64,000 nucleotides of DNA from Pseudisothecium myosuroides (taxonomy: Eukaryota > Streptophyta > Bryopsida > Hypnales > Lembophyllaceae). Shown in pieces: positions 4,368 through 52,028 of this stretch. Within the stretch, counting starts at the first letter, position 1. The number at the start of each line of letters is the position of its first letter. Both the position numbers and the translations under genes were made by a program. Location of the stretch: the NCBI GenBank assembly GCA_951799445.1, contig OX637290.1:23554987-23618986 (forward strand), read 5' to 3'. The notes under the pieces are model-generated. The model searched no databases, was not told where the DNA came from, and saw only the letters and a list, made by a program, of their open reading frames with translations.

Positions 4368-5692
4368 CCTCTAAAGGACCAAGGCCTTTTTTTGGCCAAA
4401 CAACACTCAAGACTGTCATTTCTATTGTAAAGAGTAATAAAATTTGAAAATTATTTTTTTTCACATCTAAACATAGGATCTTACACATATAGAGTATAAG
4501 AAAGTATAGAAAAAATTTCAAAAATTTTGACTGCAGAGATTGCAAGATATATGTGTTTAAAGTGAAGAAATCAAATATTTTTGCACATTACGGGACTAGA
4601 TTTTTTGACTTTGAACCTTCTTAACTTAAATTCTCTGCAATATAAAATTTGAGATTTAAATCTTTATAGTGGAGAATTGAGTTGAGAATCTAGGGCAAAA
4701 ATTTCAAAAAAACTTAATTTTCACTCTTAAACAAATTGCTAAGTAGAAGTAGGTTCAAGATAGGAGGAAAATCTAAATTATTAATATCTCTAAGATGGAA
4801 TCAAAACGCACTAATCCCAATAGTGAGATTGTTCTAGAAAGCAAAATAAACCATGTAAAACTTTTTCTTTTGAAAAATTATAAAATTTGCATTCAAAAAA
4901 GAATCCTACATGTTGTTTTTTCAAAAGATGCCCCCAAAACAAGATTGTCCATAACTTTCAAATCACTTATCCTAATGAAATGAATCAAAGCTTTCTATGT
5001 AGACAAAAATATAATCTATAAGGAAAAAATCCCAAAAAAAATTGAATTTTTGAATTTTTTTTGTTGCCCGGTCTTCCTTGTGTTGAGCTTATTTGGGCAA
5101 AACTTTTATTCCTAGGTAGGTAGGTAGGTATAATATTCCCACAAAGCTAATCAATTTTCTATCTTCAAAAAAAGTTTCATAAAATCATGACAAAAATTGA
5201 GATTGTACGTACCACGGTTGCTAGTATGTGAGCCTAGGATCTTGAGCCCATGAGCCTAAGAGCTTAGACTCCTATATTATAAATACCTATGTTATAGGTA
5301 CTTTCTATAGTTATAGGACATTTATATTATAGGTTCCTAATTTATAGGTGTCTATATTATAGATACCTATGCTACAAGCACCTTTCATGGTTATAGGATA
5401 TTTATAGTATAGGTGTCTATATTATTGGTACCTTCCATGGTTTAATGGTTATATGATATTTATAATATCTAGATGCCTATATTAGAGGTGTCTATGTTAT
5501 AGGCACCTTCCATAGTTATAGGATATTTATGTTATAGGTACATATGTTATAGGCACCTTCAATACTTGTAGAGTACCTACTTACACCTGGGCTCAAGGCT
5601 CGTAGGCTTGCATTCCTAGACTCACATGCTAGCGTCGTTGTTGTATGTACCTACCCAATTTGTTCTTCAAAGGGATACTTGTCCTTTAGTGG
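4368..5692 (-). mobile_element. TTAA-flanked piggyBac-like MITE, copy K, with nested insertion
   Basis: Starts CCTCTAAAGGACC after TTAA (4364-4367) and ends GTCCTTTAGTGG before TTAA (5693-5696). The interior matches copies E and F, including TGCCAAAAAAC near the left end and the internal box AAACATAGGATCTTACAC at about 4472. Removing the nested element at 5214-5640 and its 11 bp duplication leaves about 890 bp. There is no transposase. Strand is called by placing the hairpin-bearing end at the 5' side; the hairpin itself is eroded here. Confidence 0.85.
5214..5640. mobile_element. Mutator-like MITE with internal minisatellite
   Basis: Flanked by the 11 bp near-perfect duplication TTGTACGTACC (5203-5213) / TTGTATGTACC (5641-5651). 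The ends are inverted repeats: GCTAGTATGTGAGCCTAG at the left and CTAGACTCACATGCTAGC at the right. The interior is a degenerate tandem array built on TATAGGTRCCTATRTTA. A 9-11 bp duplication fits the Mutator superfamily. A related copy is at 36540-36820. It is inserted in TTAA element K, so it is younger than K. Confidence 0.78.
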
Positions 5693-5696
5693 TTAA

Positions 5697-7689
5697 TGCC
5701 CTTTCCACCCTTTCTCACTATTCAATCAATGTTTTTTTCCTTTGTACAACATGAAAGACATAATATTTTATCAAAGAATTATTCAACAAATTGATCAAGA
5801 ATTAATACTCTAACATGCTAAATGTGAAAAATTGTGGCTTTATTACTATAGTCACCTAAAAACTATCAGATTCCTAGATGAAAAGGTGCATCTTTCATTT
5901 CTAAGTCATTCATTGGACACTATGAGTCTTCAATGTCCTTTCTTTTCTGCGTTAATTTCCAAAGGGGGTGCCATCTTATTTTACAGTAGTTGAGTTGATT
6001 TTGGCAAATTAGCTAAATGGTTGTCTTTAGAGATCCACCCACATCTTCAAGCAAAAAAACAAGCGTTTGTATAATTAGATATTTTGTAACATTAAACGCT
6101 CTCAAACTTTTACAAACAACCACACTCTATTATCATCAGCCACATCCTCCTAAACCAATTTCTCACCCATACATACCTCTAATACCTCAATAAGCAAAAA
6201 TAAATACAATCCCTCCTGTCTCTTCTTTTCACAACCTACACTTTTCTATTAAAATTAAGAAAAATAAACATAAAAAATTACAACAATGTTTTCCTACTCA
6301 CGGAGGTATGTAATTTCAATGTCACTTGTTTTGATTTTTTGGAGTCAGCCGTAGGACTTGGAATGAACATACTCTTAATTTATACCAACCATAAAAATAA
6401 ATGGAGGACATATAGACAAAATCACATAATATATAGATAATATTCACACTCATTCAAGCATAGTTTTTCAAGGAAGTTATATAGTCAAAATCATATATCT
6501 TTTCCTTTTAAAACCTTATATATTAATTTTTAGCTATATTATTGTCATTCTAGCTACAAGTTATATAATTAGTAAAGTTTTTTTTTTAAAAATAATTGTT
6601 AAATAGTAATATTAATTTTCTTCTATTTTCAAAGTTGCACATAATGACCAATACGGTGCACAATAGTGAAATTTTTTAATTATTATTTTGTATGAATACA
6701 AATTCTTTTAAGACGTCTTAAGGAGTTTATAAAATTGATTTTTTTTAAAGGATAATGACAACTTTAGGCTAGACAATTTTTTTGGAAAACTACGATGAAA
6801 CATTGGTTGATTTAATTCACCTTTATTTGTACTCAAATGACCCCTTTGTCCCCTTGCTAACAATATTATGAAACTATTTAAGCATAACATTATTCAAGAA
6901 GAAAAAGACTTTTTTTACTAAAAAAATCATAAGCAAAACTTTATGCAATTGTTGGACATTCCAAATTTAATAAATATGTAAATTGGAGAAGATCTATTGT
7001 ATTGGCATCATGCAATCAAAGAGCAAGTCAAAGAATAATTGGATAATGAAACCGGAGACCACATTGTATAAAAGTATTAAAAATCACATGAGTGCAAAGA
7101 TAAGGTATTTTTTTCAAACAACGTGAAATTAATCATTTAAATTTTTGTAATTCAAACATCATATTATATAATACAAAGTGGGCTTACCAAATAAATGTGT
7201 TGTATTAAAATATTTGTCGTAGAACTTTATTTAAAACTAGTAGAGCCTTCATTCTTGTACTATAGCAATTGCATGTTAAGACAACATGATTAACATAGAT
7301 TCCATCATCATTTAATGCAAAATTGGAATTATTGAAGCCAACACTTTTATATGGTTTGAAATGGTTTTATTTTAACAGAAGTACAATTTATTCTAACATA
7401 ACATTACTCTCAACTTTTGTGTTTTATATAACAAAGTTGATTGCCTCACCACATGGTGTATTAGCTAATTTTGCATTTTCACGTGTACAACTATGTATTG
7501 ACATGGTATAAATATAGAATATAGTTATTCTAAACACATGTTTGTTGTCTCAAACATGTTGTTGTTGCAATCCCTATTAAAATGTTGTTAACATCAATAA
7601 AAATGTGTCAAATGTAATAGATTGTTCTTCTATTATTATTAGAAGTTCACATGTACGTATTTCAACAATTTTATTGTTTGTTGAACAGG
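5697..7689. other. Intergenic, nothing recognised
   Basis: AT-rich sequence with no coding frame of recognisable content and no paired terminal repeats that I could find. Diverged transposon remains are likely but not demonstrated. Confidence 0.5.
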
Positions 7690-9010
7690 AAAAGACAAGT
7701 ACTTTATAGTTTGTACAAATGGGGTAGGAGGCATAATAATCTACGTGGGATATGTCAAAACGTAATAATTGTATGCTAACCAAAACTTCATACCTCATTT
7801 TACCCCTATTTTTTTCATATTTAGAGACCTACAACTGCTTCAAAATACTAATCTCCAAAGCAAGGCTAAAATCTTAATCTATATTTATTTTTCAACAAAT
7901 CCAATCATAAGATCCTTTAGTTAACATGCTAGAGTATTTATACCCTCTTAAAATTTTACAATAAAAAATCTTACCAACTACAAGATCATAATGCTTGGAT
8001 TTCAAAAAGAAGTATTTTAAACTTTTTTCAAATAGTGAGATTCCATCTTTCAAACATTTTATCCAAAAATGTGCCGATCCTACAATTTGCAACTCCCTAT
8101 AATATGTTGAAGAAATAAATTGGGAATACATATTAAAAAAAATTGAAAAAAATTCATATTTATGCATGAAAAAATATACTAAGTAGAAAGAAGTAGAGAA
8201 TGATTTAAAATACTAAATTGTTGAGGATTTAGTTATGGAATTGAAACATGCAAATTCAATGGTTGTAATATTGTAATAAACAATCTACATCCTATGGTTT
8301 TATTTATTTTTTAGATATTAAAAATTTAGTTAAATAATAGACTTCAAAGTTTATTTTAGAGTAGAGATTCCATAATCGCCTGCATACAAAAACTCCTCAT
8401 AACTTTCATCTCACTAATCAAAATGGAATGATTCAAAGCGTATGTATGAATCTAGAAAATAAATTTGAAATTTTATTCCTTAAAAAATACATTTTTTTGA
8501 GGTGCCCAAGCTATCCAATTGAAAAAAATACTACATATCATACAAGAACTTTTAAATCATGTAGTCAAAAGTTACAAAAATTGTTGCGCCTCAAAGCTAC
8601 TTCTTGACCACATGTTATGTGAAAATTTCAAAGAAAAAATTAAAAATTTCATTCTTAGTGAGCTGCCTAAAATTTCTATGTTGCCAAAAAACATTGTTTG
8701 GTCCTTTAGGAATTAAGCATATTAATTCATTTTTTTTCAAAAATTATTCAGCTTACAAAAATATAGGAATTTATGTTGAATTTCAGCTCCCCAATTTTTT
8801 TTGTGATTTGAATCATCCTTTCAAAAGTTATAGACAAAGTTGAGAGGGAAAGAGTACGAAAGTAATCACCCATATCTTTTTCTAAACTTTGTCTATAACT
8901 TTTAAATGGAAAATTCAAGTTACAAAGTAATTTTTGTAGCTGAAATTCAAAATAAATCCCCACATTTTCTAAAGTTTAAAAAAAAATTGAATCAACATGC
9001 TTAAATGAGG
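7690..9010. repeat. Foldback element interrupted by a TTAA element
   Basis: The left arm (about 7690-7799, starting near TACAAATGGGGTAGGAGG and ending CATACCTCATTT) belongs to the same family as 16497-17020 and 44573-45082. The centre is the palindrome 8713-9004: the sequence reading in from TTAAGCATATT at 8713 matches the reverse complement of the sequence ending AACATGCTTAA at 9004 over more than 100 bases, with a TTATAGACAAAGTT core on both sides of about 8858. Copy M (7803-8712) sits in the left arm; the right arm keeps the uninterrupted site. Confidence 0.7.
7803..8712 (-). mobile_element. TTAA-flanked piggyBac-like MITE, copy M (L/M subfamily)
   Basis: Starts CCCCTA after TTTA (a mutated TTAA, 7799-7802) and ends GGTCCTTTAGGAA before TTAA (8713-8716). 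At 910 bp it matches the net length of copy L, and the right half (8170-8712) is clearly similar to L: AGAAGTAGAGAATGATT, then CCTCATAACTTTCATCTCA, then GAATGATTCAAAG. The left end is more eroded. There is no transposase. The insertion site lies in one arm of a palindrome whose other arm preserves the empty site. Confidence 0.75.
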
Positions 9011-10409: not shown

Positions 10410-11341
10410 CCCCTAAAGGACCGTTGTCCCTTCGGGGGACAAATGCGTTTTCGGGCAGGTACCTACGGGCTGAAATTTTGTCATGATTTTTTGAAACTTT
10501 TTTTGGAGATAGAAAAACTGATAAGCTTTGTGGGAATATAATTTTTTTCAAAATCGGTGCCCGGGAAAAAAAGTTATGACCATATAAGCTCAAAACAGGG
10601 GACGGCGGGCAGTCTGGGCAGCAAAAAAAAATGGACAAAAATTTGAATTTTTTTTTTAATATTTTTTTTCTCATAGATTATATTTTTACCTATCTGGAAA
10701 GCTTTGATTCATTTCATTTGGATATGTTATGAGAAAGTTATGGACATTCTTGTTTTTCGGGCAGTTAGAGCATCTTCTTGAAAAAAATAACTTGTAGGAT
10801 GCATTTCTGAATGAAATTTTTCAAATTTTTCAATTTTTTTTTTTTTTTGCATGGTCTGATTTACTTGTTAGAACAATCTCACCGTTGGGATTAGTGTATT
10901 TTAATTCCATCTAAAATATATGAATATTTTAGATTTTCCTTCTATCTTGTACCTACTTCTACTTAACAATTTTTTTAAGAATGATAATTAAGTTTTTTTG
11001 AATTTTTTTTTTCCTAGACTCTCAACTCAATTCTCCACTATAAAGATTTAAAGCTCAAAACGCTATAGTGCAAAAATTTTAAGTTAAAAATGTTTAAAGT
11101 CAAAAAATCTGGTCCCGCAATGTGTTGAAAAACTTGTTTTTTCCACTTTAAACGCAGATATCTTGCAATCTGTGCGGTCAAAAATTCTGAAATTTTTTCC
11201 ACACACTCTCATACTAGTTAGGTGTAAGATCCTATGGTTAGATGTGAAAAAAAAACAATTTTCAATTTTTTTTACTCTTTGCTATAGATATGGCAGTTTT
11301 GAGTGATTTTTGGCAGAAAAAAGGCCTTGGTCCTTTAGGGG
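10410..11341 (+). mobile_element. TTAA-flanked piggyBac-like MITE, copy A (best reference copy)
   Basis: 932 bp flanked by TTAA on both sides (10406-10409, 11342-11345). Termini are CCCCTAAAGGACC and GGTCCTTTAGGGG, a perfect 13 bp inverted repeat. Just inside the left terminus is the perfect hairpin TTGTCCC-TTCGG-GGGACAA. Near the right end are AGATCCTATGGTTAG and TGGCAGAAAAAAGGCC. Beyond the 13 bp terminus the two ends differ in sequence. It has no transposase and would depend on a partner in trans. TTAA plus C-rich ends places it with piggyBac by family rule. Confidence 0.88.
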
Positions 11342-15551: not shown

Positions 15552-16130
15552 CCACTAAAGTCCCATTTTTCCCTTGAAGGACAAATTAAAGTTTAGGTAG
15601 GTTCCTATTATTACAATATTTTGAAACCTTTTGTTAATCCCTAAAGTCCTTTGACTATGTTTCACCGAAAAGCCATCGAAATGGGCCTTTTTGATGGCAT
15701 AGACCCTCAAAAATGACAAATGAAATCTTGTTGCATCTAACCGTAAGATCTAATGGTAGACTACTTCATTATGATGTAGGAAAAAATGGTAGGTTTTGAC
15801 TACACAAATTGCGAGATTGTAGTATTTGAAGTTGAAAAAAATGTTTTAGGGGGGGGTCTAATTCTGGGTAGCTCTAATTTAGGGAGGCTTTTGCACAAGC
15901 TAATTTCACTTTTTTGCTTGAACCATTTTAGCTTGATTTTTGTGATAAAGTTGGCCACATGGTCAAAAAAATTCATAACATTTCAAGTTAGAGAACATGT
16001 ACCAAAAAATTCCAATAGGGAACTAGCTTCAAGAAATGTCTCATATTAAGTCCTTTTTTCAACAATTTATGGCTTGCATATATAGTAATTTCTTCAAAAT
16101 GTGAACGGTGAATTTCTAGGTTTCATATAG
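15552..16130. mobile_element. Two nested TTAA-element fragments
   Basis: A fragment starts CCACTAAAGTCCC after TTAA (15548-15551) and follows the hairpin end of copy A for about 70 bp. It is interrupted at TTAA 15634-15637 by a second left end, TCCCTAAAGTCCTTTGACTATG-like, which matches the left end of copy L and continues to about 16130 with L-like blocks (TTGGCCACATGGTC, CATTTCAAGTTAG). Right ends are lost. Confidence 0.55.
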
Positions 16131-17890: not shown

Positions 17891-18799
17891 CCCCTGGAGG
17901 CTCAAGGCATTTTCTGGCTCTGAAACCACTGAAAACTGCCATTTCTACTGCGATCACTCCCTAAACCTATTTATTTATTTGTTTTCAGAATCTAACCATA
18001 GGATCTTGTACTTCACTTGTCTCAAATCATGTGGTAAAAATTTCATGAAGTTTGACTGTACGGATTGGAAGATATTAGCGTTTGAAGTTGGAAAAAGAAG
18101 ATTTTTTGAACCTTGGATTGCAATTTCAGATGACTTTGACGGCCATTTGTGGATTTTTTTTGCACTACACACCATAAAGTTAAATTTTTTTATGTTGAAC
18201 ATTTGAGTTGAGAGTCGGGGAATTTTTTTTCAGAATGTCAAAACTTGATTTTCACATATAAAAAAATTGTTAAGTAGAAGTAGGTCCAAAATTGAACAAA
18301 ACACTAAATCTTCAATAGCTCTTAGATGGAATTAAAAAACCATAACCCCAACGGTGGGATTGTTCTTGCAAACAAACTTAACCTTTTCAAAAAACAAAAT
18401 TTGAAAAAATTTCGAAAATTGCATTCAAAAATGAATTTTATAAGTTGTTTTTTGAAGAAGACGCTTAGATTGCCCGAAAAACAAGATTGTCCATAACTTT
18501 CTCATTCTAAGTCCAAATAGAATGAATCAAAGCTTCAAATATAGACAAAAACATGATCTTTGAGAAAAAACATAAAAAAAAAAATTCAAGTTTTTAAAGT
18601 TTTTTTTTCTGCCTGGCGAACTGCTTTTTTGACTTCGGACAACATAATTTTTTTTCCCGGGCACCGATTGAAAAAAAATTATATTTTTGGAAAGCTAATG
18701 TGATTTCCTAAAGTTTCAAAAAATCGGGTCGAAATTTCAGGTCGCACGAGCTGCCCGAAATCCCAAGTGTCCCTCGAGGGGACTTTGGGCCTTTAGGGG
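17891..18799 (-). mobile_element. TTAA-flanked piggyBac-like MITE, copy C (C/D subfamily)
   Basis: 909 bp, from CCCCTGGAGGCTC after TCAA (mutated TTAA) to GGGCCTTTAGGGG before TTAA (18800-18803). It is very similar to copy D (27973-28898) along its whole length, differing mainly in A/T run lengths and scattered substitutions. The hairpin GTCCC-CTCGA-GGGAC lies just inside the right end. The internal box AACCATAGGATCTTGTAC is at about 17995. It is inserted next to an older element fragment at 18804-19325. There is no transposase. Confidence 0.86.
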
Positions 18800-18803: not shown

Positions 18804-19325
18804 TCATCCCATTTAGATTCTGAAAGTTAATGAGCTTGTTTTTGTATGCTCACGATACAATGAGATTAATGTATCAATTCCATCTTAGAGATATCAATGA
18901 TTTAGTTTTTTCTTCAATCTTGTTTCTACTTGTACTTAACAATTTTTTAATGGATGTTACTCAAATTGTTCTTTCTAATTTTTTATTTCCCCTAGACTTT
19001 CAACTCACATTCTTCAACATAAAAAAAATTTAATTCACAATTTGTAGTCCAAAAAATTTTAATTGAAAAAATTCAAAGTCTTACAATCTATTCACAAAAG
19101 GTGCCCAAAAAAAACCTTGTTTTCTTCACTGAAAATGTGATATCTCATAATCCACGTAGTCAAAGTTTCTGAAATTTGTCCCTTGCATTTTAATACAATT
19201 CTAGTGCAAGATCCTATGGTTAAATAGGCCAAGAATTTAGAATTTTTTTTCCCCTCTTTGCAATAGAAATGGCAATTATTGAGTGGTTTTCGATGGGGAA
19301 AAAAGCCTTCAGACTATTGTAGGGA
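18804..19325 (+). mobile_element. TTAA-element right-half fragment
   Basis: Continues directly from copy C with the right-hand half of another family member: CAATTCCATCTTAGAGATAT, TACTTAACAATTTTT, GTGCAAGATCCTATGGTTAA (about 19204), a TGGGGAAAAAAGCC block and the end ACTATTGTAGGG before TTAA (19326-19329). The left half is not recognisable on the far side of copy C, so the host was truncated or has decayed. Confidence 0.65.
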
Positions 19326-19810
19326 TTAAATTTTAGTCTAAGGTACCGACGGGCATTCTACCGTACTATGGGAATTAATCAACCACCAAGTATTCCCTTG
19401 ACGGAAGGATCGATAGTTTAATTCAGAAAGCAAATTTTCCCTCAAAAAAGAGACCACTACAGTAGAGTTGGTGTGGCGAGCTTGCCTGTTTTTAATCCTT
19501 TTCTGACATTTTCCCTGTCTAATTGCCAAGTGCATCATTCCACAAGTGCCTTGGGGAGCATGAGAGGGACATGCCAATTGCCGAAATTTGTTTGCATGCT
19601 AAAATGAATTAACTTATACTTGGTCTAGTCTAGAAAAGGGAAGTCAAAGAGCTTTCAGGGATGTTTTGTACTTTTTTTCTTTTTTTTAAAGCACATGAAT
19701 TGGAATTTCAGTGATGTTTTGTACTTTGAGTGATGTTTCTTTGATGATGGGAGAGTTTGAACCAACATCATGGTTCTTTCAAGACCAAAAAATCATGAGA
19801 TGAATCAACC

Positions 19811-20142
19811 TAAGGTAGGAGGTCCTGAAATCGCTCATTTAAGAGCTGAAACTGAATTTTGGGGAGGTGAAACGCCTCAAAATATTTTTCAGTGAATTTT
19901 CCTTGAAAGACAAGATGAATTGGCATCTAACCCAAGTCGTTTCATATTTTTTGGAACTTTCTAGAATTAGTTATGAAAATTTGAAGTTGAAGTGGCATAG
20001 GGCTCTAAAATCGCCCATCCCCTAAAATGTACATTGTTTGTACATCGCTGAAGGCTATGAAAAAGCAACATGTACAAGCAGCGTGCATTTGAGTAGGGTG
20101 GGCGATTTTAGAGCCTATGCAATTTCAGGACCTCCTACCTTA
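19811..20142. mobile_element. TA-flanked MITE, AGGTAGGAGG family, copy 1
   Basis: Ends AGGTAGGAGGTCCTGAAAT and ATTTCAGGACCTCCTACCT are perfect inverted repeats, flanked by TA on both sides, about 330 bp in all. The interior is shared with 32623-32939 (reverse orientation) and 57490-60285. TA flanks fit the Tc1/mariner-pogo superfamily but could also be part of the terminus. Confidence 0.82.
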
Positions 20143-22581: not shown

Positions 22582-23610
22582 CCCCAAAAGGATCAGTTGT
22601 CTCTTTGGGGGACAAGTAGGATTTTGGGCAAGTACCTACGGGAACAAAAGTTATGCTCCAAACACCTCAAAACATCAGAGGGCGGGGGAAAGGGGGCAAT
22701 CCAAAAAAATCAAAAATTTGAATTAATTTTTTTTTCTCACAGATTTTTGTCTACATGGAAAGGTTTGATTCATTCCACTTAGATTTGTTATGAGAAAGTT
22801 ATGGACAATCTTGTTTTTTGGGCAATTAGAGCATCTTTTTGAAAAAATAACTTGTGGGATTCATTTTTGAATGCAATTTTCACAATTTTTCAAAAAAAAA
22901 AGTTCCATATGGTTTAGTTTGCTTGCTAGAACAATCTCACTATTTGAAAGTTTTTTTGAATTTTTTTTCCCTAAACTCACAACTCAATTCTCCAATATTA
23001 AGATCTAAAGCTCAAAATTCTATAGTGCAAATTTTTTTAAGTTAAAAATGTTCAAAGTCAAATAATCTAGTCCCGCAATGTGATGAAGAACTTTTTTTTT
23101 TTACTTTAAATGCAAATATCTTGCAATCTGTGTAGTCAAAAACTCTGAAATTTTTTCCACACATTTTCATACTACACTAAAAAGGGTATTTAGTGTTGGA
23201 TTACATTTAGTGTAATTACCACCCTACTTGACCCTACACTAAATGTCAATTTTAGGACGATTAGTGTAGTGCTAAACTTCAATGCGCTGCCTTTGCCTTC
23301 TCTTCCCTTCTACCTTCCTTTAATAAGTTCTAACACTAAATGTAAACATTTTCAGATTTCAAATTTACTATAGAGTATATTTAATGTTAGAAATTACATT
23401 TAATGTTACTTACTTTAGTAGGCTTAATGATATTTAGTGTCATGGTTCGCAAATAGTGTTGCCAACACTAAATACCTTTTTAGTGTAGTTAGGTGTAAGT
23501 CCTATGATTAGATGTGCAAAACACCTTTTTCAACTTTTTTAAATTATTTGCTATAGAAATGGTAGTTTTGAGTGTTTTTTGGCAGAAAAAAGGCATTGAA
23601 TCGTTAGAGG
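22582..23610 (+). mobile_element. TTAA-flanked piggyBac-like MITE, copy G, with nested MITE
   Basis: Left end CCCCAAAAGGATC after TTAA (22578-22581), right end GAATCGTTAGAGG before ATAA (decayed TTAA). Subterminal hairpin is TTGTCTC..GGGGACAA. Net length without the nested 311 bp MITE and its TA is about 716 bp, so it also carries a deletion of about 200 bp relative to copy A (around 22940). There is no transposase. Confidence 0.78.
23175..23485 (+). mobile_element. TA-flanked MITE with CACTAAA ends, copy 1
   Basis: Ends CACTAAAAAGGGTATTTAGTG and its inverted partner, flanked by TA on both sides. Copies A and E of the host family show the uninterrupted host sequence CATACTAGTTAGGTGTAAG, so the insertion duplicated TA. 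The second copy at 53684-53995 is in the opposite orientation and about 90 percent similar by eye. Internal CACTAAATGTNA motifs recur. There is no coding capacity. Confidence 0.85.
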
Positions 23611-27497: not shown

Positions 27498-27766
27498 ACA
27501 TTAGAAGAGATTTGAGGGCTCTAAGAGCCTACGAGTTATCAGGCCCTGGGAACCCTGGGAACAGCTTGGAAGCAGTAATCTAACGTGGCCAAGAGAGTGC
27601 CACGTCAAAAAATAATAATAAATTAAATTTTAAATATTTTTTTAATAATAATATTTTAATATTTTTTAATTAATTAATTATTTTAATTATTTTAATATTC
27701 TGACTGTTCCCAGCTGCGGGAACAGCCTGAAACGGCCCCTTGCAGCCCTCAAATCTCTTCTAATGT
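27498..27766. mobile_element. MITE with 23 bp terminal inverted repeats
   Basis: The left end starts ACATTAGAAGAGATTTGAGG. The right end, finishing CAAATCTCTTCTAATGT, is its perfect inverted partner over 23 bp. Inside are a second inverted pair (GGGAACAG / CTGTTCCC) and an AT-only core with TTAATTAATTAATTA. No clear target duplication is seen, so the superfamily is unresolved. Confidence 0.75.
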
Positions 27767-32622: not shown

Positions 32623-32939
32623 TAAGGTAGGAGGCTGTAAAATGGAGTGGGCATTAAAAGCGAACATGACTCAGAGGTACATTTTGCTTTCTGGAATGTA
32701 CCACCTATGCACATTTCAGGAGGTGCTCACTTTTGATGACCACAAATGACCACTTTTTTCCAAATTCAAAATTTCATAACTAATTCTAGAAAGCTCCAAA
32801 AAATATGAAACGACTTAGGTTAGATGCCAATTCTTCTTGTCTTTCAAGGAAAATTAACTGGAAAATATTTTGAGGCGTTTCACCTCTCCAAAATTCAGTT
32901 TCAGCTCCTAAATGAGCGATTTCAGGACCTCCTACCTTA
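32623..32939. mobile_element. TA-flanked MITE, AGGTAGGAGG family, copy 2
   Basis: Begins TAAGGTAGGAGG and ends CCTCCTACCTTA. The right two thirds are the reverse complement of copy 1 (blocks TCATATTTTTTGGA, CTTGAAAGACAAG, ACTGAATTTTGG). The left end is diverged after the first 12 bases. There is no coding capacity. Confidence 0.78.
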
Positions 32940-33145
32940 GAGCCAAGTAAAAGATGGAAAAGGCAAAGTGTCAAGCGTGCCTACTCTTTGCACAATGATG
33001 GATTAAATTAAAGGTTACTTTCATGGTTGTTGCTATTTACTCAATGACATGACCAAATTTGCCAAGATGAGTGGATAGGTGTATTTTCCAGCCTTAAAGA
33101 TCAACTTCTAGTAGTTGTATGGCAAATCAACGCCTACAATGTTAA

Positions 33146-34074
33146 CCTCTAAAGGACCGAGGCTTTTTTTTCTGCCAAAAAACTGAAACTTGCCATTTCT
33201 ATAGCAAGGAGTAAAAAAATTTGAAAAATGTTTTTTATGCACATTAAACCGTAGGATCTTACACCTAACTAGTATGAGAATGTGTGGAAAAAATTTCAGA
33301 ATTTTTAACCGCTCAGATTGCAAGATATCTGCGTTTAAAGTGGAAAAAACAAGTATTTCAGCACATTGCGGGACTAGATTTTTTGACTTTAAACATTTTT
33401 AACTTAAAATTTTTGCACTACAGAGTTTTGAGCTTTAAATCTTTATAGTGGAGAATTGAGTTGAGAGTCTAGGAAAAAAATATATATTCAAAAAAACTTA
33501 ATTATCATTCCTAAAAAAATTATTAAGTAGAAGTAGGTACGAGATAGAAGGAAAATCTAAAATATTAATATATTTTAGATGGAATTAAAATACACTAATC
33601 CCAATGGTGAGATTGTTCTAGCAAGTAAACTAAACCATAAGAATTTTTTTTTTTGAAAAATTGCAAAAAGAGCATTCAGAAATGAATCCTACAAGTTATT
33701 TTTTTCAAGAAGATGCTCTAACTATCCGAAAAACAAGAATGTCCATAACTTTCTCATAACAAATCCAAATGAAATGAATCAAAGCTTTCCAGATAGACAA
33801 AAATATAAAATACAAGAAAAAATATTTTTTTTTTAAATCAAATTTTTTCAAATTTTTTTTGCTGCCCAGACTGCCTAGTTACGAAAAAAAGTAACATATT
33901 TGGCCATAACTTTTGACTCTTGTTTCCAAATGTGCTGGAATTTAGTGCATATGAAAGATATTCCTTGCGTCCACCTTCTATTAATATTTTAGCTTAAAAT
34001 ATAGAAATCTCTAGTCACACATACCTGCCCAAAATTTCTATTCAGCCAAAAAACGCATGCCGGTCCTTTAGGAG
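33146..34074 (-). mobile_element. TTAA-flanked piggyBac-like MITE, copy F (mosaic)
   Basis: 929 bp with TTAA at both sides (33142-33145, 34075-34078) and ends CCTCTAAAGGACC / GGTCCTTTAGGAG. From the left end to about 33865 it follows copy E. From about 33880 to the right end it follows copy L instead (TTTGACTCTTGTTTCCAAATG, AATTTAGTGCATATGAAAGA, CTAGTCACACATACCT). The switch lies in a shared CTGCCCRGRCTGCC block. There is no transposase. Confidence 0.83.
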
Positions 34075-35676: not shown

Positions 35677-36646
35677 TTCCTAAACTCCCATTGTACCCTT
35701 GGGGGACAAGATCGATTTTGGGTAGGCCCCTACGGTCTCAATTTTTGTTACAATTTTTTATTTTTTTTAAAAATAACAAAATAAATGAACTTGGGGGGAA
35801 TATGATCTATATGTCAATAGGTGTTTGAGAGATAAAGTTATGTCATCCTTAGCCCAAATTGGAATTCATTGGGCAATCCAAAAAAAATCACAAAAAATCA
35901 AAGTAAAGCTTTTAGATTTTATTTCTTGTAGAAAGTATTTTTGTCTAAAAAGAAAGATTTGATTCATTCTATTTGGATTAGTGATGAGAAAAATATAGGC
36001 AATCTTGTTTTTTGGAAAATCTAATAATCTTCATGAAAACATAACTTATAAAATTCATTTTTTAATATAATTTTCACAATTTTTCAATAAGAAAAGTTCA
36101 ACAAGGTTTCATTAGCTTGTTAGAAAAATCTCACCGTTGCGATTAGTGATTTTCAACACCGTCTTAGAGCTATTAATGTTTTATTTTTTCCTTCAATCTT
36201 CTACCTACTTCTACTTAATAATTTTTTAAAGAATGATGTTTTTTAATAAAAAGAATAAAAATCAAATAAAAAGAATAAAAAGAATAAAAATCAAATGTGT
36301 TTTTTACAAAAAGAATTCCCAGACTTTCAACTCATTTTTTCAACATAAAAAATAAGAAATTCAAAATGTGTAGTTCAAAAATTTCAAGCGAAAAAGATTC
36401 AAAGCCTTAAAATCTAGCCAAGCAAGGTGCAAGGAAGGAATAAAATTAGATTTATTCACTTCAAACACAAATATCTAATACTCTATGCTATCAAAAAAAT
36501 TGAAATTTCTTCCAAACATTTTTATACTAGTCTAGTGCAGGGAGTGCTAGCAAATGAGCATAGAATCTATTAGCCCCATGAGCCTTGGAGTCTATATTAT
36601 AAACACCTTCCATAGTTATTGGTGTCTATGTTATAGGTACCTATGT

Positions 36647-36730
<84 letters not shown>

Positions 36731-36944
36731 ACAACTTCAAATGGTTGTTAGGTACATTCCTACAATTAGGTCCAAGGCTTGTAGGCTCACATCTTTGCAT
36801 TCACACGCTAGCATTGTTGGTCTAGTGCAAGATCCTACGATTAGATATGCAAAAAAAATAATTTATGAAGTTTTTCGCAATCGCAATAGAAATGACAATT
36901 TTGGGTGGGTTTTGACAAAAAAAAATGTCTTAGAAGTTTAGGGG
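35677..36944 (+). mobile_element. TTAA-flanked piggyBac-like MITE, copy I, with nested insertion
   Basis: Left end TTCCTAAACTCCC after TTAA (35673-35676), right end AGAAGTTTAGGGG before TTAA (36945-36948). The hairpin end TTGTACCCTTGGGGGACAA is kept. Net length is about 980 bp after removing the nested 281 bp element and its 9 bp duplication; a short AAAAGAATAA repeat expansion at about 36240-36310 adds length. Box AAGATCCTACGATTAG directly follows the insertion. There is no transposase. Confidence 0.8.
36540..36820. mobile_element. Mutator-like MITE, copy 2, with (AT)n core
   Basis: Flanked by the perfect 9 bp duplication TCTAGTGCA (36531-36539, 36821-36829). Ends GTGCTAGCAAATGAG and TTCACACGCTAGCATTG are inverted and match those of 5214-5640. 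The interior has the same TATAGGTACCTATGTTATA units, here expanded into an (AT)n run at about 36650-36726. Confidence 0.78.
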
Positions 36945-37222: not shown

Positions 37223-38130
37223 CCTCTAAAGTCCTAATGTCCCCTCAAGAGACAAAATGGATTTTGGGTAGGCTCCTATGGTCTCAATATTTGTTGTGAT
37301 TTTCTGAATTTTTTGGAAAAATAGAAAAACACATTAGCTATCTGAAAATATACTTTTTACATTAGTCGGTGCCTGGGACCAACAGTTATGGCACAAAAAG
37401 CCCTTTTTTTTTAGTTTGGCGGGTAGAAAAAAAACCTAAAAAAAACTTTAAATGAAAATTTTAATTTTTTCCCCGTAGATTATATTTTTATCTACATTTG
37501 AAGCTTTGACTCCTTCTATTTGGACTAGTAATGACAAAGTTATGGACAATCTTGTTTTTCGGGCAATCTAAGCATCTTCTTGAAAAATAACTTATAGAAT
37601 TCATCTTTAAATTCAAAATCAATTTAAAAAAATAAACAAGATTGTTTTTGCTTTCAAGAACAATCTCACCATTGGAATTACTGTTCAATTCCATCTAAGA
37701 GCTATTAATGATTTAGTTTTCCCTTCAACTTTAAACCTACTTCTACTCAACAATTTTTTAATGAGTGAAAACTAAGTGTGTGTTTTTTGAATTCTTTTTT
37801 CTAGACCCTCAACTCAATTCTTCATCATGTAAAATTCAAATTTCAAAATCATTAGAGCAAATATTTTAAGTTAACAAGGTTTAAAGCCAAAAAATGTAGT
37901 TGAGGAAGGTGCAAAAAAACTTGTTTCCTTCACTTTAAATGCAAATATTTTGCAATCTACATGTTCAAAGTTCTTGAAATTTCTTCCATACATTTTTATA
38001 CTAGTTTAGTACAAGATCCTATTGTTAGATATGCAAAAAATTAATTAATTAATTGATTTTTTGCTCTCTGATATAGAAATGGCAGTTTTGAGTGGTTTTT
38101 GATAGAAAAAAGGCCATGGGGTTTTAAAGG
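37223..38130 (+). mobile_element. TTAA-flanked piggyBac-like MITE, copy J
   Basis: 908 bp from CCTCTAAAGTCCT after TTAA (37219-37222) to a decayed end GGGGTTTTAAAGG before TGAA. It keeps the ordered interior of copy A, including ATGTCCCCTCAAGAGACAA at the hairpin position, AAGATCCTATTGTTAG at about 38020 and TAGAAATGGCAGTTTTGAGTG. There is no transposase. Confidence 0.78.
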
Positions 38131-40102: not shown

Positions 40103-41928
40103 TTATAGAATGATGATGCAATATGGTGTTATGTATCCGGTTATTAGGGCATTTGCTTGAATAGCCACATGTAGCTTATCCCCTAAAGCTCTTACATTCT
40201 TCAAGTTGTACAATTCCTTGTGCTTTTTCATTGACATTCGTAACTCAGCTCTTTCTCTCTTTGCTTGCAGTTTGTCTTCTTTCTCTTGTGTCTTTTTCTC
40301 CTTGCTAGCCTCCTTCTCTAACCTCCGCCTCTCTTTTTCTTCCGGAGTTGCTAGCATGTTTGTTGTCAATTCTTTCAAATCCTTCAAATGTTGTTCCTTC
40401 GTCAGTAATATGGACTTTTGTTAGTCTATAAGCAGCTTCGATTGTCCCTTCAATTTGCTGGCTACTTCCACTTGGAGAAGTTCTAGGAGCTTGCGGAAAT
40501 CGTTGTATTGGCCATGTCTAGATACATCAGCTGCCTCACTATCGCTTGAATTATTACCATCTTCCTCTCCATCTGTTTGTACATTTTCACCGTCTACTTC
40601 TACGCAATATTGTTGACATTTAGGAATATCTAATGGGAATTCATTGAAAAGCTCTTAAATTTTTTAGTCTTCTAATTGGTATTTTGTTGTTGGTTCTTAT
40701 TGGTTTCCCTCTATAGGATTCTGACTTCCTTGTGTTGTATAATATGTTTGGTTTGGTCCCATCTTTGAGTTCATGGCATTAGCATTAATAGAGAATTTTC
40801 TAATAGCTTCAAATCCTTTTGTAATATTGGAAATTGTTAAGGCTCACCTCAGTCCATGTGACACCCATTGTATTAAATCCTCTTCATTAGGAACTTGACT
40901 TTTGTGACTCAAATTCCATTTATTTCTATAAACTCTTAATGATAGTTTAAACAGTTTAAAGCAAGTGACATCCAAAGGCTGTAAGGCATGTGAGGTGTGA
41001 GATGGAAAGTTTATCATATCTAAACCTCTAGCCATAACAAATTTAATTACTCTTAATGTTATATGAAAGTTATGTCCATTGACAATTAGCAACTGCCTAC
41101 TAATTGGAGATAAGTCATACATCTTTGAAATGTTATAAAGAAAATAGAACTTCCAAGATCTAAACAAATAATGTGTCATCTAAGCTTTCTTCTGCATTGT
41201 CATCACAGAACTTTTCTCTCTAGTTTATATCTAAAAAATTCGGATTTTTTTCTTTCATTTAAATATATAAAAATTTGGAACATTCCCGTTTGGCATTTAT
41301 GCAAAATAATACTACCAGCCACTCTCTTTGGTCTAGTGTCACTGTATGTACATTCTTTGATCCTCTTCTAGCTATAACATAGCCACCACCATCTTTTCCG
41401 GCTTGAGCGCCACTTTTGCCGCAATTCCAAACTTAGTGAGTCTTATATGTATGTGTATCATATAGCTTCCACAAATTATTTTAGAAAGTAACTACAATTT
41501 TGGGACATAAGTTTCGGTTTCTCTTTTGCTCTAAAGCTTGGAGTTGTTTCATGGCTAATTCAGGGTGTCTTCTTTTAAAGCATTTTACCCATCTAGGTCC
41601 GGGGACCCATCTTTGAATGGAGTCATTCTAGCTTGAGTTACAATCCAACTTTTTCTCGGAGTTGTCCAATTGTGAGAATGAAGCCTAAGTGTTGCATTTC
41701 TATAATGTAGTCAACTAATTCATTTTCTTCATTATATGTCAAAACTCTCAATTTTCCTCTCCTTTGTATGGTAGTGCCATAAATGTGGCCTCTCAAACTA
41801 GATGAAGGAATGCCATGGTCCCTTAATGCGGATTTGATTAGCATTCCTTCATCCTCTTTAGCTATAGCACTTAAAAGTTGTTCCGTAGTCCACTTCCGAT
41901 TTATCCTTTGCTTACACTTGGAGTACAA
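40103..41928 (-). pseudogene. Pogo/jerky-like (Tc1/mariner superfamily) transposase pseudogene
   Basis: The order is that of plant pogo-like DDE transposases. 41638-41928 encodes an N-terminal helix-turn-helix region (RKWTTEQLLSAI, HGIPSSSLRGHIYG, LTYNEENELVDYI). 41180-41637 continues with WVKCFKRRHPEL, VIARRGSKNVHTVT and REWLVVLFCINA. 40844-41179 carries LLIVNGHNFHITLRVI and MINFPSHTSHALQPLD. 40780-40843 has ALTISNITKGFEAIRKF. 40103-40387 encodes a charged coiled-coil tail. It is dead: at least three in-frame stops and two frame changes lie between 41180 and 41640. The usual first catalytic aspartate motif reads WNCGKSG instead of WNxDE, and the usual LDGH reads VNGH. Terminal repeats were not found. 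Family assignment is firm; the element's borders are not. Confidence 0.85.
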
Positions 41929-43140
41929 ATTAATAGTCTAATAGAAGATTTTGCATTGGCTATCATGTAAGAAGAATTACCTGGATCAATAAACGCAGTT
42001 GACGGGATTGCATGTTGACAGCCGATCCTTCTCTACACATTGCTTCCGGCTTCCTCTAGCATGTTGGCAGCCGGACTATTGAAATTTCCATAAATTTTGT
42101 TTAACATTTTGGTAACGTTTTATTATTGCCAAATATAGTGTAAACCTTTGAAATGACTTATCCACGTTGATTGTTCACATCTTAATTGATATCAATTACA
42201 TTTGGAACTGTATTAGGTTATTTTGACATTGAATTATCTATAAAAAATTAACCTTGCACTTTTCTAAAACAGAGATGTGCACATTAATGTTTTCTACATA
42301 CTTGAAAAATCAAATTTGAAAAATTAATTATTAATATTATCTAATCAATTATTAAAAATAAAAAAATAAACAAGTAGATTGTCAAAACTAGAATTTTTAA
42401 TTTCAAAATGTGAAATTTGGTGTGTTGATCAAGATTGCATAGAAGAACAAATTTAATAGATTAGTTTTAAAAATAAATTCTTTGAGAGGTGAAATTTAGA
42501 AAGATATCCTTTTGGTAGTGCAAGATCCTAAGGTTAAAGTTCAACGCTAGAATCCCAAAATTTTGCATTGGAAACATGGTTTTCAACAAATTTCAGCCCA
42601 CATTTTTTGTTTAGACCAACACAGATTTCTTCTAATGACTTGTATAAAAACATCAGGGTATACAAATTGCAAGACACTAGCATTAGAAGTTAAAAGAAAA
42701 TGTTTTCTTAGAGCCTACATGATAATTTCATGTGACTTTAAAGGATTTTTGCTGGAAATTTTTGCGCCATTGGTTTTGAATTAAAAAATCTAAGATACTC
42801 AAGGTCATGTTAGGTATATCTTTACCATACTTTACAAATAAAAAAGATGCAAACGACATCTTAAAAATCCTACAATGCTAAGAATTGTCAATCCACTAGA
42901 CTTCTTTCCAAACACATTTTTTCAATAAGTATATTTAATTAGCTCCCTACCAAAAATTTCCTTTACAAAAAATGATTAAACTCATTGCAACAAACTTTGG
43001 AGACTTCACATATTCTCAAAAAAGTATAATTTGAAAATATTTCCAACAATATACCACTTGCTAGATTTAAAGAATTGTTGTTCTTACAATTGCTTTCAAA
43101 GTTTTCATCTCAAATATTCCATCAAAGCCTTACATTCTTT
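41929..43140. other. Intergenic, with a TTAA-family internal box
   Basis: AT-rich. GTGCAAGATCCTAAGGTTAA at about 42518 and the adjacent 42540-42780 resemble the L/M interior, indicating an old TTAA element without definable ends. No gene is seen. Confidence 0.45.
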
Positions 43141-43144: not shown

Positions 43145-43740
43145 CCCCTAAATGTCCAAGCCTTCTTTTTTGTTTTGGAAAGGCATTTTGACCTTCTAGA
43201 ACACAAGTTCTAAAATTGATTTAAAAAAAACTGAACAAAAACTTGTAACAATATGATCTTGGACTTTAAGGCTTGGAGATGAGGTGCCAAAAAAAAATTA
43301 GAACAACTAGGCATAGAAATGTAGAGATTTTAGGATTGAATATGGATGGGTAAGCTTTTTTTTTAATGCAGCTATCCAAAACTTTAGATGCCAAGCTGAC
43401 AAGCTTCATGCTAGAATTTGGAGAATAATCAATTATGATGTAGTTCTTACAATCCATAAGAGAAATCAATTAATTCCCCTCCCTAATCAATCGCATCAAC
43501 TTGAGAAATGAACTTGCATTGCAAATGCCTAGGAGGTCTCATCTAATACAAAGGAATTTTTTAATCCCATTTTTTGGAAAAATGATACTATGTATAAAGA
43601 AATTTTCAATGGTACATCAATTTTATAGTACGTAACAAAAATTTTATGACTGAAATCAATGATAAAACCATTTGGATTTTCTTAGATGACAATTTATCAA
43701 GGATTGAGGCTTTGTTGCCCAAGGTAGCTGCTCATAGGCT
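43145..43740. mobile_element. Probable second-family TTAA element, right end uncertain
   Basis: CCCCTAAATGTCCAAGCC directly follows TTAA (43141-43144) and matches the left end of 50452-52028. The following bases (CTTCTAGAAC, ACTGAACAAAAAC) also resemble that family. The right end is only guessed from expected length. Confidence 0.45.
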
Positions 43741-45082: not shown

Positions 45083-45089
45083 GTGTATA

Positions 45090-45353: not shown

Positions 45354-45380
45354 ATATAGAGTTGTCCTTCCTCTTTGAAA

Positions 45381-45785
45381 TCCATACCTTAAGTTCGGTT
45401 GTTTGTTTGTTTTGTTTGTTTGTTTGTCACGTCGAGATCTCCCGGACCGTGCATCCCCCGGGGGCGTGCTTGGTACCGTTGGAAAGCCCTCGGCGAGGAG
45501 GGGTGCACGGGCTTGGTTTCGCAGCGTTTGGAGTTAAGGTGCGGAAGTTATTGAATTTCGAAGCATTTATGGGTCAAAAAATTTAGGAAATTACTTTTAC
45601 TTTGATTTTGGTGACGCTCTTGGTACCGTCGGAAAGCTCTCGGCGAGGAGGGGTGCACGGGCTTGGTTTTGTGGCGTTTGGACGTATGGTGGAAAAGTTA
45701 TTGAATTTCAAAGTTTTTTATGAGTCAAAAAATTAGAAAATCGCTTTTACTTTATTTTGGGTGTGGCAACGGCACATGCCACATT
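45381..45785 (+). repeat. Repeat family R, copy R3 (dimer)
   Basis: Begins TCCATACCTTAAGTTCGG and a TTTG run, then two units of about 170 bp each containing GGTACCGTYGGAAAGC, TCGGCGAGGAGGGGTGCACG and AAGTTATTGAATTTC. It ends GGCAACGGCACATGCCACA. This is the most GC-rich and best preserved copy. Confidence 0.78.
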
Positions 45786-47391
45786 AGTCCAAATTAAGTT
45801 ACTGATTGCAAAGATTAATAATGCATTAGTGTATCACTCATTAGATTCTTGGCCAACATCTTTCACTACAAGTATTTGTTGATTTGTATGTTTAGTTCTA
45901 AAAATTAAGAAAAGAAAATAGAACATATCATAATGGACAGTCACTATCCCGGTACCGAAGCTTATATTAAATATGTGGGGATGAAAGTCGTGGATGAGGA
46001 CTCTAGAGAGGAAAAGGCAACCTCTCTGAAGGCTACTGAATGTTATGGCAATCGAGGTCCATTAAAAAAAATTTAAGTTAGTATGCAGGAAATAGAAATT
46101 GATAATAAAAATTGAGTTCACATCGCAACTTGCTCCGAAAAACATTGTAAAAAAATGAAGCAATGACTTTAGTATTGCCTGAAAGTTTTATGAACACTAG
46201 ATTTTGGTGTCTTCATGCATTCAAGGATTAATGATTTCATTAGCTACCATCCTCCTAAATTCCCCTCTTACCTCATTCCTTGCCTATTTTGGAAGTCAAA
46301 GAATGTTCCTATGACCGACCTAACCCTTGATATGCATATCATGGGAAAAAAATGGCTCCAACTTCTAAACCATAAGTTTGATTTACATGAAAATTATGCA
46401 CTTGCAAAGCTATCAAAACTTTTCATCTCTAAAAGAAAATTCTAAAAATCACAACAAAGATTGAGAATATAATAACCTATTTGAAATCCATTTTGTATCC
46501 GAGGGGACAATGAGACTTTAAAAGTTACTAATTGAAACCAATATGAAATGCTTATTTGGACAATTTTAGGCAATCACCTTAATTCCTACAGCTTTGTAAC
46601 TATGTTTTGCCAAAATCCTCTCCAAAACTACCATTTCTATTGCAACTCTAATCATTTGTTTTTTTTAAATATTCAATTGTAGAATATGGCACTAAACTAA
46701 CATGAGAATGTTTGGAAGAGATTTCATAAACTTTGATTGTGTAGAGTGTAAGATATTAACATTTGATGTGGAAAAAAACTTTTATCTTCTTTCCAATACG
46801 AGATTTGAATACTTTGAATCCTCTTAATTAACTTGAAGTTTTGTACTTCTAATTTTTGAGTTTTAAATCTAATTGGTGGAGAATTGAATTGAAAGTCTAG
46901 GGAATAAAATCAAAGGTTAGGTGGAAGTGGGTACAAGATAGAAAGAAAACCTATTCATAATTCTAATATAGAATTTTAGAAAATTCTTAAATCATTCCTA
47001 AAATTGAGCTAGAATTTATCTACCAAAATTTTTATTTGTTCCTTAAAGAAACAATGGTCTTGCAAGAATTAAGGCCTAAACCCCCAAAATACCAAGTGCC
47101 TAGAAGCACTTTTTGATCAAATTTCCTTAGTATATACATCTTATAAATCAATATGTATTTGTTGTTGAAGAAATGATTATAGAAAATCTATCTAAATAAT
47201 ATTAATCCCTCATAACTTTTGTATCTGGTTTCCAAATTATGTATTAAAATTTCCTTTAATTTGCCAATTTTGTAAATATGTATATATTATGTGTGTGTAA
47301 TTTGTTTGTTTGTTTGGTATAATAATAGAATTTGGACACAGTTGGAAATTAAAGTGATGATTCTAGATGTTTTTACGTTAACCCATAAAGT
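45786..47391. other. Intergenic, diverged TTAA-element remains
   Basis: 46570-46960 resembles the first half of the TTAA family (CTATGTTTTGCCAAAATCC, TTTGGAAGAGATTTCA, AAGATATTAACATTTGA), but ends and flanks are not definable. The rest shows nothing I can name. Confidence 0.45.
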
Positions 47392-48546
47392 TCCTTGACT
47401 ATGTTTTTACCAAAAATGCTCCAAAATTGCCATTTTTAGTACAAGTACCAAATTTTAAATCAAAAAAACATTTTTGGACACATGTAACCATAGGATCTTA
47501 TAGTATGTGAGGTTTAAAAGATGTAGAAAAAATTTCAAAGTTTTCTACCCTGCAGATTGGAAGATATTAGCATTTGAATTGGCAGAAATCATTTTTTGTC
47601 CCTACGACAAACAAGGCAGTTGCACTTCACAAGGTCACATTTGTATGAAAAAATGTCCAAAATGGTGGTGCTTCTTTGGATTCTTTTTTCTAAACAAGTT
47701 GGCTACATGTAAAAAAAATTTAAATCATTTGAAATTGTACAACATATAGGAAAAAAATAGTAAGAAGAAAGAAGTAGAGAATGATTCAAAATATAAAATT
47801 CTTAATCCATGAGCGCCCCACAAGCCAGAATCAGTGGCCTTTCAATTTTGAAAGATTTCCTTGTTTGACCATTATAATCTTTTCATCAGTACGATCAAAG
47901 GACGTGTTCCTTTCTTTGGAGCTCTAAGCCTATTTCCACTACCAATTGGTACGGCCAGTTTATGTGGATCTCTTTTTAGGTGATAATTTGATTGAAATGA
48001 ATTCCAAAGGGTCTAGATTTTAGTAAACTTGAGTTGGGCGCTCAGGGGTTAAGAATTTAATTATGGAATTGAAAATGTCAATCCCAGTGATTGTAATGTT
48101 GTAATAAACAACCTATGATTTAATTTTTTTCCAAAAAATTGAAAATTGAGTGAAATAAATGACTTATAATCTATTTCAGAGTGAAGAATCCATATTTGCC
48201 TACAAACTAAAATTCCTCATAACTTTCATCTCATTAATCAACATGGAATGATTCAAAGTTTTCTACATATATATATATAAATCTAGAAAACCAATTTCAA
48301 ATTTTTGTTTCTGAAAAATGATTTTTTCTGATCTACCCGGACTGCCCAAGTTGAAAAACAAACAACATATTAGGCCATAAACTTTTGACTCATATTTCCA
48401 AGTGTCATGAAATTTAGTGCATATAAAAGATATTCCTTGTCTTCACCTTCTATTATAAGTTGGGCCTAAAATATGCAAATTTCTAGTCATAAGTACCTCT
48501 TCAGAATTGCAATGTTGCTTAAAATAGCAAGGTGGTCCTTTTGGAA
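47392..48546 (-). mobile_element. TTAA-flanked piggyBac-like MITE, copy L, with nested TTAA element
   Basis: Starts CCCATAAAGTTCC after TTAA (47388-47391) and ends GGTCCTTTTGGAA before TTAA (48547-48550). Removing the nested element and one TTAA leaves 908 bp, equal to copy M within 2 bp. Box AACCATAGGATCTTATAG is at about 47490. The right quarter also occurs in copy F. There is no transposase. Confidence 0.82.
47806..48048. mobile_element. Small TTAA-flanked element with GAGCGCCC ends
   Basis: 243 bp between TTAA (47802-47805) and TTAA (48049-48052). Ends TCCATGAGCGCCC and GGGCGCTCAGGGG form a 13 bp inverted repeat with two mismatches. The interior is unrelated to the larger TTAA elements and has no open frame of note. 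It is nested in copy L. Confidence 0.78.
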
Positions 48547-50085: not shown

Positions 50086-50451
50086 TAAGGTAGATATTCC
50101 CATTAGCGTCCTTGTTTTTATTCTTGTACCTTAGACTGTCACCAAATCTGTCCATAGACTTCTCATTAGTATGTCCTTGAAAGTTTTAACTCTGATTCGT
50201 TGATGCATTTGAGGGACACATACCTAACTCTCATTTGTTGATTAGTGATCTTTCCAGATTTCAATTTTGGGTCCACCTATGTGACAATTTTAGTGGTCTA
50301 GGGAGCCAACACTTTGAAAAATCATAGAAATTACATACCATATCCAAAAAAAATTAATTAATTTTTTTTAATATTCACGATTTTCACTCGCTAATACTAC
50401 AATAATATCATTTTTAGGAAAAGGTGCCTCCAATTATTTTCAATTGCTTAA

Positions 50452-52028
50452 ACCCTAAATGTCCAAGCCCTTTTTGAACTTCTAGGAATTTGCTCTAAAT
50501 TGAACAAAAAGTCAACAATTTGATAAGTTCATTCAGTTTTTTATGAATTGTAACCGTACAAATTCAAACTACATGTTAGAGGTCACATAAGAAAAGAAAA
50601 CACAACAATATCACTTATCAATTGAAAGACTATAATGTTTGAACATGAGGGTGTTAACCCCTAAAGGCCCAAGGTCTTTTTTCTGCCAAAAAACACTGAA
50701 AACTGCCATTTCTATTACAAAAAGTAAAAAAATTAAAATTATTTTTTTTCACATCTAACCGTAGGATCTTACACCTAATTGGTATGAGAATGTGTGGAAA
50801 AAATTTCAGAATTTTTGACCGCACAGATTGCAAGATATTTGCGTTTAAAGTGGAAAAAACAAAATTTTCAGCACATTGCGGGGCCAGATTTTTTGACTTT
50901 AAACATTTTTAGCTTAAAATTTTTGCACTACAGAGTTTTGAGCTTTAAATCTTTATAATGGAGAATTGAGTTGAGAGTCTAGGGAAAAAAAAAAATTCAA
51001 AAAAACTTAATTATCATTCTTAGAAAAATTGTTAAGTAGAAGTAGGTACAAGATAGAAGGAAAATCTAAAATATTCATATATTTTAGATGGAATTAAAAT
51101 GCACTAATCCCAATGGTGAGATTGTTCTAGCAAGTAAACTAAACCATTCCAAAAAAAAAAATTACAAAATTACAAAAAATGCATTCCGAAATGAATCCTA
51201 CAAGTTATTTTTTTCAAGAAGATGCTCTAACTGCTCGAAAAACAAGAATGTCCATAACTTCCTCATAACAAATCCAAATGAAATGAATCAAAGCTTTCCA
51301 GATAGACAAAAATATAATCTATGAGAAAAAAAATATTAAAAAAAAAAATTCAAATTTTTGTCCCTTTTTTTTTTGCTGCCCGGGCTGCCCGCCGTCCCTT
51401 CTTTTCAGCTTATTTGGTCATAACTTTTTTTCCCGGGCACCGATTGAGAAAAAATTATATTCCCACAAAGCTTATCAATTTTTCTATCTCCAAAAAAATT
51501 TCAAAAAATCATAACACAATTTCAGCCCGTAGGTACCTGCCCGAAAACGCATTTGTCCTCCGAAGGGACAACGGACTTTTAGGGGTTAAAAATGCAAAAG
51601 TGACTTGAAGTCTTTCAATCCTCTTTTCACATGCCAAATCTAAAAAGTTGGGCAACAAAAAAAATATGAGGTTAAAGGACCTAACATGCATAACCCCAAT
51701 CAATTTATAGCTTCTCAAAATCTACTCTACAATTTTTTTAAATGAATTTCTATTGCGATTTTTCCTTCAAGAACTAGTGTATTTGAGGGTCATTTCCAAG
51801 AGCCCTCAATACTACAGAAAGTCAAGATTGCAATGGATACCCTTGCACAAAATCTTGAATAGAAAAATCATAATCCATCATTTTCAAAATCGGACTTTTG
51901 AAGCTAAAACTAGAGTTCAAAAAGAATTTTTTGAAAATATAAATTACTAAAAATAGCAACTTGGTTAGGTTTTATTTAACTTCAAAGTTTTGTCAACACC
52001 CAAATTGAGTGCCTTGGGCATTTAGGGG
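50452..52028. mobile_element. Second-family TTAA element, interrupted by copy E
   Basis: Starts ACCCTAAATGTCC after TTAA (50448-50451) and ends GGGCATTTAGGGG before TTAA (52029-52032). Without copy E and one TTAA it is about 645 bp. The interior is shared with 55638-56212 (AAGAAAAGAAAACACAACAA, GAAAGACTATAATGTTTGA, CAAAATCTACTCTACAAT, CCCTTGCACAAAATCTT) and differs from the A-type elements apart from the ends. There is no transposase. Confidence 0.82.
50658..51585 (-). mobile_element. TTAA-flanked piggyBac-like MITE, copy E
   Basis: 928 bp with TTAA on both sides (50654-50657, 51586-51589) and ends CCCCTAAAGGCCC / GGACTTTTAGGGG. It is the reverse orientation equivalent of copy A throughout. 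Hairpin TTGTCC..GGACAA-like sequence lies inside the right end, and AACCGTAGGATCTTACAC at about 50759. It lies in a second-family element whose other copy (55638-56212) shows the empty TTAA. There is no transposase. Confidence 0.88.

Follow-up and report, generated by a model that had tools for sequence, protein, structure and literature searches.

A family of non-autonomous TTAA-inserting transposons, probably moved by a piggyBac-type transposase, in a moss genome

A TTAA-inserting transposon family

A stretch of 64,000 nucleotides from contig OX637290.1 of Pseudisothecium myosuroides (the window) carries a repeated non-coding element of about 0.93 kb, which is best explained as a family of non-autonomous cut-and-paste DNA transposons, that is, large miniature inverted-repeat transposable elements (MITEs), moved by a piggyBac-type transposase (probability roughly 0.6). 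Terminal inverted repeats (TIRs), flanking TTAA tetranucleotides and, for two copies, related unoccupied sites that contain just one TTAA were observed directly, and copies B and F contain no credible coding domain. In the proposed mechanism, a transposase supplied in trans, presumably of the piggyBac type, would bind the TIR CCCCTAAAGGNCC together with subterminal sequence, which is not the same at the two ends; the element could then be excised by a cut-and-paste reaction and inserted at TTAA, leaving TTAA on each side.

The end motif CCCCTAAAGGNCC, with up to three mismatches, occurs 58 times in the window, and none of 100 dinucleotide shuffles reached this number (mean 24.18, standard deviation 4.35, maximum 38). 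A nucleotide profile that excludes the flanking TTAA, built from 11 copies chosen with their ends in view, gave 28 hit rows, which together span 14,187 of the 64,000 nt (22.2%), a figure that includes an internal insert of about 390 bp in copy A; the estimate in the preliminary description that TTAA elements form about a fifth of the window was therefore right. Both ends could be placed in 12 copies (A to K and M), which lie in both orientations, and the remainder are fragments. Eight of the 12 (B, C, E, F, G, H, J, and K) measure 908–933 bp, and the longer ones are A (1325 bp), D (1029 bp), I (1268 bp), and M (1165 bp); the family itself is real, and the thirteen near-complete copies of 0.91–0.93 kb given in the preliminary description become 12 two-ended copies, eight of them of that length. 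Among the nine pairs for which Kimura two-parameter distances were computed, B–G, B–K, G–K, and C–F are 7–10% apart and the other five 23–40%, a distribution that fits repeated bursts, or more than one wave of amplification.

Target site and empty sites

Profile-placed ends abut an exact TTAA in 20 of 29 cases and lie within one base of it in 25 of 29. TTAA makes up 0.84% of the tetramers in the window, and the corresponding binomial tail, approximately 3e-35, is no more than indicative, given the relatedness of the copies and the extrapolation of some ends (by 7 bases at most). Among the copies with two ends, seven of 12 (A, B, F, H, I, K, and M) have TTAA on both flanks, the same number as given previously; in four, one flank is TTAA and the other differs from it by one base (TCAA in C, ATAA in D, CTAA in E, and TGAA in J), and only copy G (28991–29923, + strand, 933 bp), flanked by TTAG and TCAG, has it on neither. 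One-base variants of this kind, such as TTAG, CTAA, and TCAA, are reported for piggyBac target-site duplications (PMC10813416).

For the empty-site test, the flanks of 12 elements (A to K as then bounded, and X1, a member of a second TTAA family) were joined and compared with the window, and matches spanning the junction were obtained for two of them, K and E. Copy K (50658–51585, − strand, 928 bp, TTAA on each side) is nested within X1 (50452–52028; 645 bp after subtraction of K and one TTAA; TTAA on each side) and is therefore younger than X1. Its joined flanks match 55729–56067 at 77% across the junction, with a single TTAA; this segment lies in X2 (55638–56212), a diverged X1 copy without K that represents the related empty site, with TTAA at its right end and ATAA at its left, extrapolated end. 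The joined flanks of copy E (25811–26738, + strand, 928 bp) match four array units at 2460–3746 at 69–75% through the junction, where every unit has one TTAA; these alignments contain gaps in the first 15 bases or so on the downstream side. Since the related empty sites hold a single TTAA, K and E were inserted into pre-existing sequence at this tetranucleotide.

Because TTAA is palindromic, a perfect TTAA site alone cannot formally separate a duplication of 4 bp from one of 2 bp: an element with ends ACCCC..GGGGT that duplicates TA, T[TA]ACCCC..GGGGT[TA]A, also reads as a TTAA duplication. A Tc1/mariner or pogo element of this form, inserted at TTAA, is accordingly one alternative, and the window does contain a pogo-like DDE_1 remnant (E 3.6e-11). 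We nevertheless regard this alternative as rather improbable, since no facing pair of ends specific to the remnant was seen and the outer T is retained at 26 of the 29 ends as called, so that the target spans four bases under either duplication length. In addition, the flanks of copy G would require a single mutation if 4 bp were duplicated but two if the duplication were TA, and we take 4 bp to be the more likely length. A PIF/Harbinger (Tourist-like) element with a duplication of TTA or TAA would represent a common plant MITE type with a similar-looking target (PMC12550479). With TTAA standing on both sides of 7 of 12 copies, however, the two ends of such an element would have to differ by one base, one of them carrying an additional A or T, and a duplication of 3 bp would leave the fourth conserved base unexplained; this origin is therefore very unlikely.

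Termini and superfamily assignment

The family ends are given in short form as CCCCTAAAGG and TTAACCCCTAAAGG, and the consensus starts with CCCCT, corresponding to CC..GG termini. Copy B (10410–11341, + strand, 932 bp, TTAA on each side) illustrates the anatomy of the element: its two ends are identical over the first 13 bases, end E1 reads inward as CCCCTAAAGGACCAAGGCCTTTTTTCTGCC and end E2 as CCCCTAAAGGACC, and just inside E2 lies the palindrome TTGTCCCTTCGGGGGACAA (10424–10442, + strand), which is recognisable in several other copies and occupies the E2 end only. Four ends folded as single-stranded DNA gave no significant structure for the E2 palindrome as a hairpin (z −1.75 to 0.05), and nothing in the window matched Rfam. 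With up to two mismatches, the TIR-like spans in the ten copies tested range from 9 to 18 bp; seven lie between 13 and 18 bp, within the 12–19 bp of piggyBac, six of the ten have 13–15 bp, and those below 12 bp belong to C (11), I (10), and J (9). Among the 29 ends as called, 11 start with CCCC, five with CCTC, and 13 have CCC as their first three bases.

piggyBac elements are described with the end motif CC[C/T]T and TIRs of 12–19 bp (PMC2872659) and with ends that start with CCC or CAC (PMC10140906), and the piggyBac assignment is favoured in part because the moss consensus starts with CCC. The resemblance extends to piggyBac-derived MITEs of corals, the CMITEs (PMC2872659), which share the TTAA duplication, short TIRs, C-rich ends, and pairs of occupied and unoccupied related sites. 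In contrast, the moss family has a CCCCT end instead of CC[C/T]T, is approximately 0.93 kb long compared with about 0.1 kb for CMITEs, lacks the subterminal repeat of the Trichoplusia ni (T. ni) type, resides in a bryophyte, and shows no transposase. The piggyBac interpretation of the preliminary description is thus supported in part: the evidence bears out insertion at TTAA, TIRs that are short and C-rich, and a host among the land plants, namely a bryophyte.

Several observations weigh against a piggyBac-type element or make the support for its target less sharp. Only two of the 29 ends as called fit CC[C/T]T, a motif rarely matched because the consensus carries an extra C, and the call for one of the two, at 26737, lies a single base inward of where the end probably is. 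The end motifs named for piggyBac in the excerpt of PMC10813416 are CACTA, CCCTC, CCCTT, and CCCAT, and CCCC is not among them. Asymmetric subterminal inverted repeats are described for T. ni piggyBac (PMC10140906), a feature whose generality across piggyBac is not assumed here; a shared repeat of that type was found in none of ten copies, the best inverted match being equalled by at least 10 of 200 shuffles in each. Direct subterminal matches, consisting of T/A-rich words, were exceptional in G, where none of 200 shuffles scored as high, and in H (1 of 200). Furthermore, a cruder scan for TTAA-flanked inverted 12-base pairs 150–4000 bp apart found 18 pairs (540 sites), only some of which join the two ends of one copy, and a control in the same style gave 13 pairs for AATT (952 sites) and 0–6 for six other tetramers; this control is less sharp because internal repeats also yield pairs. 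No empty site within the window was found for 10 of the 12 elements tested. Pfam scans with stops read as X, which covered 5450–26260 and 29900–61980 in six frames and 26700–28898 in four of six, gave no match to the piggyBac domain DDE_Tnp_1_7, and the sole credible transposase remnant, the broken pogo-like DDE_1 sequence, is of another type.

Other enzymes are known to insert at this target. Sola3 duplicates TTAA upon insertion. A Sola3 transposase, or an undescribed lineage, could have moved the family, an alternative that we hold to be unlikely. The ends start with CCCCT instead of CC[C/T]T, the parts of the window that were scanned yielded no piggyBac domain, and Sola is on record for the moss Physcomitrella patens (PMC10741241); the likeness to Sola3 itself lies in the TTAA target. 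On the other hand, the CCC start of the consensus and the TIR length fit piggyBac (PMC10140906, PMC2872659), and the same Pfam scans contained no Sola domain. Kolobok elements also duplicate TTAA and are known in chlorophytes and rhodophytes (PMC9587614), so the earlier statement that TTAA specificity with C-rich termini defines piggyBac was too strong. Like the moss family, Kolobok and the T2-MITEs include non-autonomous families with a TTAA target, but their ends are 5'-RR..YY-3' or AGGRR (PMC9587614, PMC6004289) as opposed to CC..GG here, and a Kolobok origin is highly improbable. It is also conceivable, although doubtful, that more than a fifth of the region was filled with non-autonomous copies by a land-plant TTAA transposase lineage, new or a sister of piggyBac, that is marked by CCCCT ends and by a subterminal palindrome on one side only.

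Search for a transposase

As a check, the preliminary description had proposed looking for a relative with these ends that encodes a piggyBac transposase; none was found in the window parts scanned, and no protein search directed at piggyBac was made. Copies B (six of six frames) and F (four of six frames) gave Pfam matches at chance level only (E 0.18–0.32). The broken pogo-like remnant lies at 40106–41937 on the − strand, with its DDE_1 match at approximately 41245–40811, and the 17 matches from a protein search with it are all named at most "hypothetical protein". It was set aside as an autonomous partner because no facing pair of ends specific to it was seen: the nearest end on the left belongs to copy J, and the nearest on the right, a further C-rich end at 43145–43175 (+ strand; CCCCTAAATGTCC after TTAA; partner end not found), is the start of an element that points in the direction leading off from the remnant. 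The 32-base end pattern had no match in genome_contigs or viral_contigs, nor copy B in plasmids; these collections are not of plants and carry little weight.

Other copies and neighbouring features

The remaining two-ended copies differ mainly in their internal sequence and flanks. Copies A (4368–5692, − strand), F (27973–28898, − strand, 926 bp), H (33146–34074, − strand, 929 bp), I (35677–36944, + strand), and M (47382–48546, − strand) have TTAA on each side; I contains an internal stretch with a TA repeat, and M is diverged and was matched as two pieces. On the E2 side of copy H, the first 195 bp or so cannot be aligned to copy B and show 71% resemblance to part of 48218–48545. A 45 bp sequence common to 32896–32940 and 19810–19854 (98%, opposite orientation) stops about 205 bp before copy H. 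The copies with one variant flank, apart from E, are C (17891–18799, − strand, 909 bp; TCAA/TTAA), D (22582–23610, + strand; TTAA/ATAA), which carries extra internal sequence, and J (37223–38130, + strand, 908 bp; TTAA/TGAA). Adjoining C is a truncated copy (18859–19315, + strand) whose end lacks TTAA. Further partial copies lie at 8102–8712 (− strand), where TTAA flanks the E2-side end at 8712, and at 15552–15943, where two copies have TTAA-flanked ends at 15552 (+) and 15638 (−).

Copy E, with flanks TTAA and CTAA, sits in a repeat related to the tandem array at 2438–3733, in which a 278 bp unit is present 4.7 times. Another tandem repeat, at 45469–45760, consists of two copies of a 150 bp unit.

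A receptor-like kinase exon is located at 51–860 on the − strand. Among the best 120 of its 1,380 matches, there are closer matches at 91–93%, the best named homologues are from Sphagnum (51–54% in seven rows), followed by those of the liverworts Calypogeia, Marchantia, and Riccia and then of a lycophyte and seed plants, and neither Physcomitrium nor Ceratodon appears. No relative was found in viral_contigs, again a collection that is not of plants and of little weight. Judged from the sequence, the host belongs to the bryophytes and is probably a moss. At 61607–61783 (− strand), a weak Amidohydro_2 match (E 0.00055, 20.2 bits, under the Pfam cut-off of 26.4) may represent an exon of a host gene.

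Place among plant transposons

In the excerpts examined, catalogues of plant transposons give little room to such elements: the main text of a 2025 MITE survey of 207 plant genomes contains neither "piggybac" nor "TTAA" (PMC12550479), a 2022 review of land-plant elements lists six TIR superfamilies in plants without "piggybac" (PMC9033089), and a plant annotation guide lists seven, also without it (PMC10741241). Against a first report stand passing mentions of piggyBac as known from plants (PMC10813416, PMC10140906) and 1,230 PiggyBac repeat matches tabulated for a fern genome (PMC6890710). The word piggyBac also occurs once each in some plant genome papers (for example PMC13084152, PMC12783112, PMC13180808, and PMC11074139). 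Wuneng and Microuli, which we take to be rice elements, are among the closest known systems. They too are non-autonomous, and they are described as producing TTAA duplications (PMC2872659). Owing to these mentions, the fern matches, and the citations of Wuneng and Microuli, TTAA elements in plants are not wholly new. A description of the present family was not noticed in a literature search from which subscription papers were largely out of reach. As judged from the literature and not from a comparison with Repbase or Dfam, the family is probably a new one of non-autonomous TTAA elements with a piggyBac-type mover. If its transposase is indeed piggyBac, plant catalogues would be overlooking a TTAA class that is able to fill a fifth of a moss region.

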